A DNA stretch of 64,000 bases from the NCBI GenBank assembly GCA_017305535.1, contig JAFKKN010000006.1:186001-250000 (forward strand), written 5' to 3'. Below are positions 173-53,990 of this stretch, piece after piece; position 1 is the stretch's first letter; each line of letters opens with the position of its first letter. The DNA is from Hyphomicrobiales bacterium. Its GTDB lineage: Bacteria; Pseudomonadota; Alphaproteobacteria; Rhizobiales; Xanthobacteraceae. The position numbers and the translations under genes are program-made. The notes under the pieces were generated by a model. That model was given only the letters and a program-made list of their open reading frames with translations. It did no database searches and was not told where the DNA came from.

Positions 173-1054
173 ATGCACGCAGCACTTCTTTCCGACCGGG
201 GTGTGGTCAAGCTCAGCGGCGAGGACGCGAAAGCGTTCCTCAACGGCCTGATCACCGCCGACGCTACCGGGCTCGAACCGGGCGCGGGGCGATTCGCCGC
301 GCTGCTGACGCCGCAGGGCAAGATCGTCGCGGACTTCCTCATCACCGAAGTGCCGGCGGGCCACGGCGGCGGCTTGCTGATCGACTGCTCCCGCGCGCTG
401 GCGCAACCGCTCGCCACCAAGCTCGGCTTCTACAAGCTGCGCGCCAAGGTGACAGTGGAAAACCTGTCGGACTCTTTCGGCGTCCTCGCGGTGTGGGGCG
501 GCGAACCGGCGGTCAAACCGGATCTCTGCTTTCCCGATCCGCGGGCCGAGGGCCTCGGCTGGCGCATTCTGATCCCTTCCGAACTGGCAACCAAGGCGGC
601 GGCGCTCGTCGGCGCGACGATGACGGACGAGGCTGCTTATGAGGCGCATCGCATCGCCTGCGGTGTGCCGCGGGGCGGTGTCGATTTCAACTACGGCGAT
701 GCGTTTCCGCACGAAACCAATATGGACCGCCTGCACGGAATTGACTTCGACAAAGGCTGCTATGTCGGCCAGGAAGTGGTGTCGCGGATGCAGCATCGCG
801 GCACCGCGCGGACGCGCACCGTGCGCGTTGCGTTCGACGGTGCTGCGCCCGATGCGAGCGCTCCAATTCTCGCAAACGATAAGCAGGTAGGCACGATGGG
901 ATCGTCCGCGAACAGCATCGGCCTCGCCACGATGCGGATCGACAAGGTCGCAGACGCACTCGACGCCAATACACCGCTCGTCGCGGGAACCACAACGATC
1001 CACCTCGCCGATCCAGACGCCGTGCGTGGTCTGCAAAAGAAGACCGTCGCATGA
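173..1054 (+). CDS. ygfZ: YgfZ/GcvT-family folate-binding protein
   Basis: A 293-residue protein of the YgfZ (COG0354) family, a tetrahydrofolate-binding relative of the glycine cleavage T protein that helps assemble or repair iron-sulfur enzymes. The diagnostic motif KGCYVGQE, with the conserved cysteine, lies near residue 200 and is followed by [12 protein letters not shown]. The ATG is taken because the whole N-terminal fold starts here. Its stop overlaps the next gene (tag) in an ATGA, so the two are probably translationally coupled. Function is assigned from the family; the motif is seen directly. Confidence 0.9.
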
Positions 1055-41129: not shown

Positions 41130-42908
41130 TCACACCAATGCCTTGCCGCCGGCGAACGCCTTGGCGGTGGCGTCGTCGTTGGCTTCGGCCGGCAACAGCA
41201 TCTCGTTATGCGCCTTGCCGGACGGGATCATCGGGAAGCAATTCTCCAGCGCGGCGACACGGCAGTCGAACAGCACCGGTTTCTTCACCTTGATCATCTC
41301 GTGCAACGCACCGTCGAGATCGCCCGGCTTGAACACCTGCATGCCGACGCCGCCGTAAGCTTCCGCCAGCTTCACAAAATCCGGCATCGCCTCGGTGTAG
41401 GAATGCGACAACCGGTTGCCGTGGAGCAACTGCTGCCACTGCCGCACCATGCCCATGTACTGGTTGTTGAGGATGAATATCTTGATCGGCAATTCGTGCT
41501 GCACGGCGCACGACATTTCCTGCATCGTCATCTGCACCGAGGCATCGCCCGCGATGTCGATGACGAGACTGTCGCGATGCGCCACCTGCACGCCAAGCGC
41601 CGCCGGCAAGCCATAGCCCATGGTGCCGAGTCCGCCCGACGTCATCCAGCGGTGCGGCTCTTCGAAACCGAAGAACTGCGCCGCCCACATCTGATGCTGG
41701 CCGACTTCGGTGGTGATGTAGGTGTCGTGCCCACGCGTCGCCTCGAACAGCCGCTGGATCGCGAACTGCGGCAGGATCACGTCGTCGCTCTTTTTGTACG
41801 CGAGTGAATTGCGCGCGCGCCAGCGGCCGATCTCGAACCACCACGGATCGATCTTCGGCTTCTTGCCTTCGGCCTTGAAGGCTTTCAAAAGGTCTTCCAT
41901 CACGCTGCCGGCATCGCCGATGATCGGCACGTCGACGCGGATGTTTTTGTTGATCGACGACGGGTCGATGTCGATGTGGATCTTCTTCGAGCCGGGCGAG
42001 AACGCATCGGTGCGGCCGGTGATGCGGTCGTCGAAGCGCGCGCCGATGCACAGCATGACGTCGCAATCATGCATCGCCATGTTGGCTTCGTAAGTGCCGT
42101 GCATGCCCAGCATGCCGAGCCAGTTCTTGCCCGACGCCGGATAGGCACCGAGGCCCATCAACGTCGACGTGATCGGAAAACCTGTCGCCTCCACCAGCGC
42201 ACGCAGCGTCTGCGAGGCGTTGCCGCCGGCGTTGATGACACCGCCGCCGGTATAGATCACCGGCCGCTTCGCGTTGGCCATCAACGCGACGGCCTTGCGG
42301 ATTTGGTTCGGATCGCCCTTGGTCTGCGGCTTGTAGGAGACATGCACGTCGGACTTGCGCGGCGGCGTGTAGGTGCCGGTGGCGAACTGCACGTCCTTCG
42401 GCACGTCGACGACGACCGGACCCGGACGGCCGGAGGTCGCGACGTAGAACGCTTCGTGCAACACCTTCGGCAGATCCTTGATGTCGCGGACCAGCCAGTT
42501 GTGCTTGGTGCAAGGCCGGGTGATGCCGACGGTGTCGCACTCCTGGAAGGCATCGTTGCCGATCAGATGCGTCGGCACCTGCCCGGTGATGCAGACCAGC
42601 GGGATTGAATCCATCAGCGCATCGGCGAGCGGCGTCACCATGTTGGTGGCGCCGGGACCGGAGGTCACCAGCACGACACCCGGCTTGCCGGTGGAGCGCG
42701 CGTAGCCTTCCGCCGCATGGCCCGCGCCCTGCTCGTGGCGGACCAGAATGTGTTCGACATCGCCCTGCTGGAAAATCTCGTCGTAGATCGGAAGTACCGC
42801 GCCGCCCGGATAGCCGAAGATATGTTTGACGCCGTGATCGACCAGCGCACGGACGATCATCGCCGCGCCGGTCATCTGGTTGGCATCGTGGCTCTTGCTG
42901 TCGCTCAT
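41130..42908 (-). CDS. ilvB: Acetolactate synthase large (catalytic) subunit
   Basis: A 592-residue thiamine-diphosphate enzyme that condenses pyruvate with pyruvate or 2-oxobutyrate, the first common step for valine, leucine and isoleucine. The catalytic glutamate is in VRHEQGAGHAAEGYARSTGK near residue 55. The TPP-binding domain shows IAGDASVQMTMQEMS and VFILNNQYMGMVRQWQ. The ATG has GGAGAG upstream. Expression is predicted to be set by the upstream leader peptide and attenuator. ilvH follows. Confidence 0.96.
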   Translation of the reverse strand: MSDSKSHDANQMTGAAMIVRALVDHGVKHIFGYPGGAVLPIYDEIFQQGDVEHILVRHEQGAGHAAEGYARSTGKPGVVLVTSGPGATNMVTPLADALMDSIPLVCITGQVPTHLIGNDAFQECDTVGITRPCTKHNWLVRDIKDLPKVLHEAFYVATSGRPGPVVVDVPKDVQFATGTYTPPRKSDVHVSYKPQTKGDPNQIRKAVALMANAKRPVIYTGGGVINAGGNASQTLRALVEATGFPITSTLMGLGAYPASGKNWLGMLGMHGTYEANMAMHDCDVMLCIGARFDDRITGRTDAFSPGSKKIHIDIDPSSINKNIRVDVPIIGDAGSVMEDLLKAFKAEGKKPKIDPWWFEIGRWRARNSLAYKKSDDVILPQFAIQRLFEATRGHDTYITTEVGQHQMWAAQFFGFEEPHRWMTSGGLGTMGYGLPAALGVQVAHRDSLVIDIAGDASVQMTMQEMSCAVQHELPIKIFILNNQYMGMVRQWQQLLHGNRLSHSYTEAMPDFVKLAEAYGGVGMQVFKPGDLDGALHEMIKVKKPVLFDCRVAALENCFPMIPSGKAHNEMLLPAEANDDATAKAFAGGKALV

Positions 42909-42956: not shown

Positions 42957-42982
42957 AAATAAAAAAGGGCCCTAGAGGCCCT
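42957..42982 (-). terminator. Attenuator terminator in the ilvB leader
   Basis: On the minus strand AGGGCC-TCTAG-GGCCCT (42967-42982) is followed by TTTTTTATTTT (42957-42966). It lies after the leader peptide and about 48 bases before the ilvB start, so it would stop transcription before the gene when branched-chain amino acids are plentiful. Confidence 0.85.
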
Positions 42983-43037
42983 GCACACACCGCCCGAATT
43001 CGGGGTGACGTCAGCCACCCCCGGCGGTGTGCCAGGG
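42979..43037 (-). promoter_or_regulatory. Antiterminator stem of the ilvB attenuator
   Basis: On the minus strand CCCTGG-CACACCGCC pairs with GGCGGTGTG-TGCAGGG, a long near-perfect stem that takes up the AGGG of the terminator's left arm. A nested GGGGTGGC/GTCACCCC hairpin fills its loop. Mutually exclusive pairing with the terminator is the classical design. A ribosome stalled at the Leu/Ile/Val codons just upstream would leave this stem free to form. Confidence 0.75.
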
Positions 43038-43076
43038 TACGACGATAATAAGGAGGCTGGTAACTTTATTGCGCAT
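43011..43076 (-). CDS. ilvB leader peptide
   Basis: A 21-codon frame, MRNKVTS then LLIIVV, then PWHTAGGG and TGA. Six consecutive codons for the three branched-chain amino acids (CTC CTT ATT ATC GTC GTA) are the signature of ribosome-mediated attenuation. It starts 24 bases after the predicted transcription start and is followed directly by antiterminator and terminator. A Shine-Dalgarno-like sequence is weak, as is common in such leaders. Confidence 0.88.
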   Translation of the reverse strand: MRNKVTSLLIIVVPWHTAGGG

Positions 43077-43106
43077 GGATCGCCGTAATTTCTCAAAGGT
43101 TGCGCG

Positions 43107-43135
43107 GTTATAGAAGCCTGAAATCCTCAGGTCAA
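43107..43135 (-). promoter_or_regulatory. Sigma-70-type promoter of ilvB leader
   Basis: On the minus strand TTGACC-N17-TATAAC, with 5 of 6 matches in each hexamer at ideal spacing. The predicted start near 43100 lies 24 bases before the leader ATG, between the miaA stop and the leader. Confidence 0.75.
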
Positions 43136-43177: not shown

Positions 43178-44092
43178 CTAGAACAAAATTGCGCGGGTCA
43201 ACCATGCGGCAGCGTCCGCCGGGGCAATCCACTCGAATTCCGGCAACTGGTGCCGAAACCAGGTGAACTGCCGCTTGGCGTAGCGGCGAGTATCGAGCTG
43301 TCCGATGGCGGCGGCCTCCTCAAGCGACAGTTCGCTCGCGAGGTAGCGGATCAGCGCCGGGACGCCGTGGGCTTTCATTGCCGGCAGCAACGGATCGAGA
43401 TGCCGTGCCGCCAGCCCCCGCACTTCCTCCAATGCGCCATTTTCCAGCATCGTTCCGAAACGGGCGTCGATCCGCGCATAGAGCGCCTCGCGCTCCGGCG
43501 CGAGAAAGACGGCTGTAACTTGATCCGGCGGCAACAGCGGCGGCAGCCCGTCGCGATGCCAATCCGTCAAAGAGCGCCCGGTGGCCTCGATCACTTCCAG
43601 CGCGCGGGCGATCCGGCTGCGGTCGCGCGGCTTCAGCCGTTCCGCCGCAACGGGATCGCGCCGGCGTAACTCCTCATGCAAGGCTTCGGGACCGGCGCGC
43701 TCAAGCCGCGCCCGTACCGCTTCGCGCACCTCGGACGGAATGGGCGGCACTGCCGACAATCCGCGCGTCAACGCTTTGAAATAGAGCCCGGAGCCACCGA
43801 CGAAGATCGGCAGGCGTCCCTCGGCGCGCGTCTCCGTGAGCACACGCTCCACGTCAGCGACCCACATGCCGGCGGAGCAATTCACGGCGGCGTCGACGTG
43901 ACCGTAAAGCCGATGCGGAACTTGTGCCTCCTCCTCCGAAGTCGGCCGCGCAGTGATGATGCGCAGGTCGTGGTAGACCTGCATGGAATCGGTATTGATG
44001 ACCACGCCGCCATGCGTCCGCGCCAGTTCCAACGCCAGCGCTGACTTGCCGCTGGCGGTCGGCCCTGCGATAAGCACGGCCTTGGTGCTCAT
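43178..44092 (-). CDS. miaA: tRNA dimethylallyltransferase
   Basis: Transfers dimethylallyl from DMAPP to A37 of tRNAs reading UNN codons. The 304-residue protein has the P-loop [15 protein letters not shown] at residue 9, [11 protein letters not shown] next, and a C-terminal [18 protein letters not shown] 44092 is chosen at [12 protein letters not shown], where the family starts. The open frame extends 570 bases upstream over the serB gene but has no conserved sequence. The serB start lies only 16 bases away on the other strand. Confidence 0.95.
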
Positions 44093-53507: not shown

Positions 53508-53675
53508 CGACCAAGGCTTAAAGCCTTCGCACACTGCCACCAAGGCGTGTTTTCAACAGCCACACCTGCATTGCACGCGGAGCGGCCGAGAAACCATCGC
53601 AGCCTGACGGAGTAAACCGACGGAGGGCTTTCGCCGGGCCGCCTTGCCCCCTATATTGATCGGGCCGGTTCGCCG

Positions 53676-53990
53676 GCTATGGAAATAAATGGCCGTCGCA
53701 ATAAACCATTCGGACCCGGGGGCAGCACCCGGCGCCTCCACCAAAGCTCCTTCGGGATCGGACCGGAGCTTTGGCGGGGGCGAAACAGGATCGACGAGGG
53801 CGTAAAGGGCGTGTTTTTTCTCGGTATGGTTCCGCCGTTATCGGGCTATGCAATAGTTGCAAACGACAACTTTGCTCCGGTTGCTCAGGCTGCGTAACGC
53901 AGTTTGAAAGACCAAATCTAAAGTCCTAGTGGGTTAAGCTCCGCTAGGCGGGGTTCGGAGGCACCTGGCAACAGAAGCCTCCACTCAGCC
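53676..53990 (+). ncRNA. ssrA: tmRNA, permuted (two-piece) alphaproteobacterial form
   Basis: The acceptor piece comes first: CGCCTCC followed by ACCA at 53733-53743 (3' end). After an intervening loop (AAAGCTCC...GGAGCTTT hairpin, 53743-53775), the coding piece begins GGGGGCG at 53776-53782, which pairs with CGCCTCC to form the acceptor stem. The tag frame at 53859-53897 reads ANDNFAPVAQAA then TAA. A closing hairpin GGAGGC/GCCTCC ends near 53982. Outer boundaries are approximate. It rescues stalled ribosomes and tags the nascent protein for ClpXP, whose adaptor sspB is next. Confidence 0.93.

Follow-up and report, generated by a model that had tools for sequence, protein, structure and literature searches.

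A probable ribosome-mediated attenuator before ilvB, and its kinship with the catalogued small RNA family Atu_C8

The minus-strand leader in front of ilvB in the window (the whole 64,000-nucleotide stretch of DNA that was analysed) is very likely a ribosome-mediated transcription attenuator of the ilvB operon. We computed its anatomy, conservation, covariation and the position of its switch point, and we infer leader translation, ribosome stalling and the effect on ilvB. The leader is a well conserved case of a known type of switch, and its analysis offers a worked account of the probable control of branched-chain amino acid synthesis in a large bacterial group that includes root-nodule symbionts (group names above the genus are tentative here and are not tool output). 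It also re-explains a catalogued small RNA family, Atu_C8, as the leader of an ilvB switch, and it exposes a discrepancy: the textbook overlap of hairpins is present in the window and missing from homologues in a second group, despite a nearly equal spacing between codon run and hairpin.

In the proposed mechanism, a plentiful supply of branched-chain amino acids would let the ribosome run past the Leu-Leu-Ile codons and cover the left arm of a stem, P1, that lies inside the leader ORF. With this arm covered P1 could not form, so the terminator would form and transcription would stop before ilvB. When Leu-tRNA is short, or to a lesser degree Ile-tRNA, the ribosome would wait upstream and P1 would form around an inner hairpin, P2; by taking the first bases of the terminator, P1 would allow RNA polymerase to read on into ilvB.

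Anatomy of the leader and its locus

Read along the minus strand, the locus consists of a reading frame ending at 43178, presumably miaA, followed by the promoter, the 21-codon ORF, the stem-loops, the terminator and ilvB. The features are as follows.

43107 to 43135, minus strand: sigma-70-type promoter, TTGACC-N17-TATAAC (from sequence and from the pattern in family leaders)
43011 to 43076, minus strand: leader peptide ORF, MRNKVTSLLIIVVPWHTAGGG and stop, 21 codons (ORF list; homologous peptides in relatives)
43023 to 43037, minus strand: left arm of P1, the 5' arm of the antiterminator, CCCTGGCACACCGCC, in the ORF directly after the Val codons (fold and covariation)
43002 to 43021, minus strand: P2 hairpin, with the leader stop codon in its loop (fold and covariation)
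42979 to 42994, minus strand: right arm of P1, the 3' arm of the antiterminator, GGCGGTGTGTGCAGGG (fold)
42961 to 42982, minus strand: intrinsic terminator, AGGGCCT-CTA-GGGCCCT and U-run (terminator scan and alignment)
41130 to 42908, minus strand: ilvB, acetolactate synthase large subunit, the regulated gene (ORF list, translation, identity to relatives)
40966 to 40415, minus strand: ORF after ilvB, presumably ilvN (ORF list)
38738 to 37719, minus strand: ORF after ilvN, presumably ilvC (ORF list)

The nearest named matches of the ilvB protein come from Nitrobacter sp. 62-13 (92% identity), an Afipia MAG (89%) and Bradyrhizobium (86-89%). In a blastn search against plasmids, the records similar to ilvB carry the annotation acetolactate synthase large subunit; the matches lay in the ilvB coding sequence, and none of the records reached 80% coverage of the query, which included the leader. 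Elsewhere in the window, a permuted alphaproteobacterial tmRNA gene lies on the plus strand at 53625-53985 (307 bits).

For comparison we took up 175 leaders, 116 from the window's own family (set X) and 59 from a second group (set R, loci L047-L105), of which 172 were analysed, three X leaders being dropped for want of a run of three Leu, Ile or Val codons. The promoter has its -35 box, TTGACC, at 43135-43130 and its -10 box, TATAAC, at 43112-43107, separated by 17 nt, exactly as the sequence-only reading had placed them. A strict consensus scan of the region did not list TTGACC-N17-TATAAC; the pattern TTGAC-N16..18-(T/C)A.... nevertheless recurs in 110/115 family leaders versus 0.9% of mononucleotide shuffles, and in 56/59 R leaders versus 0.8%. 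The distance from the end of the -10 box to the leader ATG is 30-33 nt in 97 of the 110 pattern-bearing X leaders, whereas it is 8 nt in 49 of 59 R leaders, so that in R the first codon of the leader ORF probably lies at the RNA's 5' end or immediately beside it, and the ORF would be leaderless. A passage in PMC10117765 reports a leader ORF in this position for trpL of S. meliloti. As a separate observation, the 5' part of the window's leader RNA (43102-43090, minus strand) reads CAACCUUUGAGAA, and a near-match to CAACCUUUGGGAA occurs there in many of 22 family leaders.

The leader ORF extends from an ATG at 43076 to a TGA ending at 43011, and its Leu-Leu-Ile-Ile-Val-Val run occupies 43055-43038, which bears out the 21-codon LLIIVV leader first read from the sequence. 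The operon is accordingly preceded by a short ORF with a run of regulatory codons, whose translation is predicted. A simple script found a leader ORF with an unbroken run of at least four Leu, Ile or Val codons before ilvB in 72 of 80 named loci; the remaining eight are Bradyrhizobium, where the run is broken as LLIAVV or LLTAVV. All three amino acids are present in 169 of the 172 analysed peptides.

The left arm of P1 divides into a core (43032-43023) and a lower part, CCCTG (43037-43033). The long stem CCCTGG/TGCAGGG that had been read from the sequence was recovered with its arms at 43037-43023 and 42994-42979, as was the terminator said to follow it, whose helix spans 42982-42966 with the U-run after it; this intrinsic terminator lies between the leader ORF and the first gene and is kept in the alignment. 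The inner hairpin P2 (43021-43002) had been missed. The proposed overlap between stem and terminator stands for the window, where the last 4 nt of the right arm of P1 (42982-42979) are the first 4 nt of the terminator, and fails as a general feature, being confined to part of the family.

Taken singly, the leader of the window does not stand out from chance: with z = -1.37, its fold is matched by 17 of 200 shuffles, and about 0.7 terminators of this type would be expected by chance in the region. The case for the leader hence rests on its relatives, and the evidence beyond chance is comparative. A hairpin in the 5'UTR of the window fold, UUACGGCGAU/AUCGUCGUA, was considered as a pause or protector hairpin and rejected as a conserved element. 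Across 64 leaders its own pairing scored -5.60 versus -5.84 for swapped partners, with 4218 of 5000 permutations as good, and the pairing is strong (-11.4) in the window and one other of 22 leaders. We found no conserved 1:2 protector hairpin, since the window's pairing of 5'UTR with IIVV is not kept among the 64 leaders; the classical trp-type protector or pause hairpin, which not all attenuators of this kind have, is not seen here as a conserved element.

Conservation, covariation and relation to Atu_C8

The sequence-only reading had looked to covariation in related genomes, and the relatives do keep P1, P2 and the terminator. In a 50-sequence X alignment the pairs of the three helices hold in 93.3% of cells, and sliding the helix partners against each other lowers pairing to 36-52%. 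Cells with double changes number 61 versus 20.7 in shuffles, which do not keep relatedness, and pairs with double changes number 12 versus 8.1. The P1 core is paired in 97.0% of cells with double changes in 5 of its 10 pairs, P2 in 93.7% with double changes in 4 of 7, and the terminator in 86.5%. It is the lower part of P1 (CCCTG/CAGGG) that gives the window its overlap between stem and terminator; the pairing of this part gave no signal across the 50 leaders (own -4.76 versus swapped -4.64; 1051 of 5000 permutations as good). After a post hoc split, the 35 leaders whose left arm has CC scored -6.27 versus -5.95 (32 of 5000), and the other 15 gave no signal (4610 of 5000 permutations as good).

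The leader DNA matches 127 of 296 family genomes and, in a further count, 19 of 61 genomes, the own genome being included in both. A covariance model built from the 50-sequence X alignment matches 114 of 199 genomes of the order, again with the own genome included, and ilvB lies downstream in all 20 of the fetched model loci (the best-scoring 20, 13 of them outside the family). Tried on 23 sources, the model matches the window, 16/16 R loci, L220, L225 and L241, and gave no match in L231, L253 and L260. A weak second match in the window (626-730, E = 0.68) was taken for chance. Second matches of the leader model were also seen in two genomes, at G746:C120:39949-40053 and G685:C1:206184-206280.

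The Rfam family RF02502, Atu_C8, listed as a small RNA of Rhizobiales, resembles the window leader in lying before ilvB and in having the same P1, P2 and terminator helices. The window shares this position and these helices, and scores 28.8 bits against the Atu_C8 model (E = 7.5e-4 in 401 bases), below the gathering threshold of 50 bits; the window leader is a distant homologue of Atu_C8 that falls short of the threshold for members. Of 14 loci tried at that threshold, seven have Atu_C8 immediately in front of ilvB, namely those of Rhizobium, Agrobacterium, Ensifer, Ochrobactrum, two Mesorhizobium and Labrenzia (the last just above threshold at 51.7 bits); the other seven, six X loci and L081, gave no match. 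The model of the window's family, in turn, finds all seven Atu_C8-bearing loci given to it. Because Atu_C8 sits in the same place before ilvB and its consensus helices are the same, this RNA, catalogued as a small RNA, is the ilvB leader region in these bacteria. The two differ in interpretation, Rfam naming Atu_C8 an sRNA and our reading of the window leader being an ilvB attenuator, and in one structural respect: P1 of the second group does not overlap the terminator, whereas P1 of the window does.

A class-wide survey covered 89 ilvB upstream regions (29 loci and 60 regions, one of which was cut to 127 bases; three of the 89 belong to the same order), and a strict script found a leader ORF of the branched-chain type together with a terminator in 7 of them, some doubtful. 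Two loci of the same class and of one family, L231 and L241, have the leaders MTGVVVILGNTRMGR and MNNVVLIVGKQRMGR, which share RMGR codons and a GCGCATGGG stem with Rhizobium leaders. In both, the stem runs into the terminator and the opening cost (defined below) falls at the last codon of the run; the leader model finds L241 (E = 0.005) and not L231.

Ribosome position, terminator and switch point

We folded the leader with a ribosome mask that covered the A-site codon with 10 nt downstream and 18 nt upstream. Without a ribosome the window leader comes out as antiterminated, with P_term at 0.05-0.07 there and at stalls on Ser7, Leu8 or Leu9; P_term rises to 0.75 at Ile10, to 0.95-0.96 at Ile11, Val12 and Val13, and is 0.95 at the stop codon. 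The sequence-only reading had let a stall for any of the three amino acids cause antitermination, and this holds for Leu8, Leu9 and in part Ile10; at Ile11, Val12 and Val13 the terminator is favoured, so that the window leader lacks the usual, if not strictly defining, preference for the antiterminator at every regulatory codon.

In leaders of the trp type, the terminator helix has the greater stability. For this reason, and because equilibrium P_term favours the terminator in most members (in 67/113 X and 58/59 R whole leaders it is at least 0.5 both in the ribosome-free state and with the ribosome at any codon of the run), we adopted the opening cost, that is, the cost of opening the left arm of the terminator in an RNA cut before its right arm. 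In the window this cost is 9.2 kcal/mol at Leu8 and Leu9, 6.1 at Ile10, 0.2 at Ile11, 0.3 and 0.8 at Val12 and Val13, and 3.7 at the stop codon. As controls we used trpL, ilvL, leuL, ivbL and hisL of E. coli K-12. Over the Trp codons of trpL the cost is 8.4-9.3 kcal/mol, falling to 0.1 at the stop; leuL begins with 4.3 on its first Leu, has 8.3-8.4 on the following three and reaches 0 three codons past the last; in ilvL the cost is 10.4-12.0 over VVVII, 4.4 on the final Ile and 0.4 beyond it; in ivbL it is 11.8-14.8 over the last Val run and 5.2 at the last Val; and in hisL it is 4.4-7.1 over the run, 1.5 at the last His and 3.5 at the stop. The controls thus behave much as the known mechanism requires, and at the stop codon the window is close to hisL, the values for trpL, leuL and ilvL being 0-0.2. 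By this measure the window has an antiterminator that depends on ribosome position and excludes the terminator.

A strong antiterminator at the first run codon is missing in 19/113 X and 57/59 R leaders; within this folding model, exclusion between hairpins explains the window and 94/113 of its family by opening cost, and does not explain R. In 90 of these 94 X leaders, the last codon that favours the antiterminator comes 3 codons (39 leaders) or 4 codons (51 leaders) ahead of the final run codon; in the other four it is at -1 or 0. The same switch point falls at +1 in trpL and leuL and at -1 in ilvL and ivbL; for hisL the boundary routine returned -7, -8 and -2 at three mask widths, owing to a dip in the profile, and by eye the value is -1. 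Other mask widths move the X leaders together with trpL, leuL, ilvL and ivbL. The window leader is therefore predicted by the model to sense Leu and at most one Ile, and not Val: the computed switch point precedes the Val codons, and unless a further structure exists, little or no sensing of Val is predicted for this genus. The usage of Val codons points the other way. The last codon of the run is GTA in 100 of 113 X leaders, a codon that makes up 4.9% of Val in a set of 40 long ORFs from the window; these leaders are related, so that their number overstates the independent cases. That so rare a codon is conserved suggests sensing of Val, against the computed switch point. Unusual codons in the runs also speak for attenuation as such: CTT makes up 56% of Leu codons in family runs versus 9% in the same ORFs.

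The geometry of the P1 core is shared by both groups, with a left arm that starts 4-5 nt past the last regulatory codon in 92/113 X and 51/59 R leaders, and a right arm free of terminator overlap in 109/113 X and 59/59 R. In cut transcripts with the upstream RNA free to pair, the paired fraction of the terminator's left arm was 0.61-0.67 and nearly constant over ribosome positions; R cut transcripts likewise differed little between positions (medians 0.37-0.44). A pair scan of R found no conserved alternative antiterminator and ranked P2 first. The remaining helices that outscored P1 were short (3-4 bp, with a single one of 5 bp), often involved the U-run and were taken for noise; P1 itself scored low because it hardly varies in R. 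Pairings of GGGA with TCCC and of UCGU with ACGA in R were judged by eye only. Either R has a further structure, or P1 acts there by other means. Many R members also have a small hairpin with a GAAA or GAYA loop between P2 and the right arm of P1, which makes P1 a three-way junction.

Alternative readings and known systems

One alternative reading keeps ribosome-mediated attenuation and would place the switch in the P1 core alone, without base-pair overlap and with Leu, Ile and Val all sensed. A ribosome stalled at Leu or Ile would leave the core free and one at the first Val would leave most of it free, later positions would cover it, and the overlap seen in the window would have arisen late. 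The position of the core edge where the regulatory run ends, the lack of terminator overlap in all R and nearly all X leaders and the conserved Val codons all fit such a switch, but in our folding the P1 core and the terminator coexist, and we regard it as unlikely. A little more doubtful is a scenario in which the P1 core is, throughout the order, a ribosome-gated hairpin that shares no base with the terminator; an overlap of 4 nt of the window's type would later have narrowed sensing to Leu and Ile, and the rare Val codons would act like a brake, keeping the ribosome on top of P1 and thereby enforcing termination. The classical order of 1:2, 2:3 and 3:4 pairings would instead make P1 the protector, with a Val stall freeing its right arm to trap the terminator. 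Several leaders from outside the family do show an opening cost that rises at the Val codons (for example to 4.7-5.3 in L081 and 5.8 in L295) from only 0.3-1.3 at the Leu and Ile codons of the same two leaders; these costs are low, however, and can be as high at the stop codon (5.1 in L295, 4.7 in L297, 4.6 in L050), which leaves no clean switch, while L300 has no rise at its Val codons and Val stalls in the window cost next to nothing. We consider this order quite improbable.

Two further explanations dispense with the translated attenuator as the main function. The name given to Atu_C8 by Rfam would make the leader a gene for a trans-acting sRNA that stands before ilvB by chance, with the leader ORF secondary. 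A homologous RNA is indeed catalogued as an sRNA, and rnTrpL of S. meliloti is described, in parts of PMC10117765 and PMC7143759, as an attenuated leader able to act in trans; yet a role in trans would come on top of attenuation and not replace it, and a peptide with all three amino acids in nearly every leader, together with ilvB downstream of all the best-scoring loci fetched, makes a chance neighbourhood highly improbable. A riboswitch or T-box would also account for a structured leader before an amino acid operon. The conserved ORF rich in branched-chain codons already explains the sequence, though, and the curated Rfam covariance models gave no T-box or riboswitch match in the window leader, so that we allow this explanation next to no probability.

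Attenuation of ilvB by a translated Leu/Ile/Val leader, the central claim of the sequence-only reading and the one we prefer, draws its support from conservation and covariation. Counting against it are the dominance of the terminator at equilibrium in most whole leaders, the leaders with no strong antiterminator, the swap test of the lower part of P1 over all 50 leaders, the remaining opening cost at the window's stop codon, the near-constant pairing in cut transcripts, the conserved GTA and the failure to find a conserved protector hairpin. Our literature search did not find this exact leader, or Atu_C8 as an ilvB attenuator; the work of Vitreschak from 2004, which reportedly treats proteobacterial attenuators, may already predict it. 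Among known systems, ilvL (before ilvGMEDA) and ivbL (before ilvBN) of E. coli share with the window a run of branched-chain codons and a terminator before the first gene, as well as the same computed rise and fall of the antiterminator, and ilvL also has the left arm of the antiterminator inside the ORF just past the run. They differ in the switch point, which in E. coli is at most one codon away from where the run ends and in the window comes 3-4 codons ahead of the last run codon, and in the length of the leader, 32 codons versus 21, with the window's stop codon in the loop of the inner hairpin. The main texts of PMC2873474, PMC7143759, PMC7298713 and PMC10117765 were found to contain no ilv-word. 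Ribosome-mediated attenuation of ilv operons has long been known, as stated in a portion of PMC1183508, and a passage of PMC4117421, citing Tarleton 1994, describes for ilvBN of Caulobacter crescentus an attenuator leader with tandem Ile and Val codons and a terminator. Compared by this description only, the Caulobacter leader resembles the window's in being a leader with branched-chain codons and a terminator before an alphaproteobacterial ilvB operon, and differs in that its reported signals are Ile and Val, those computed for the window being Leu and partly Ile.
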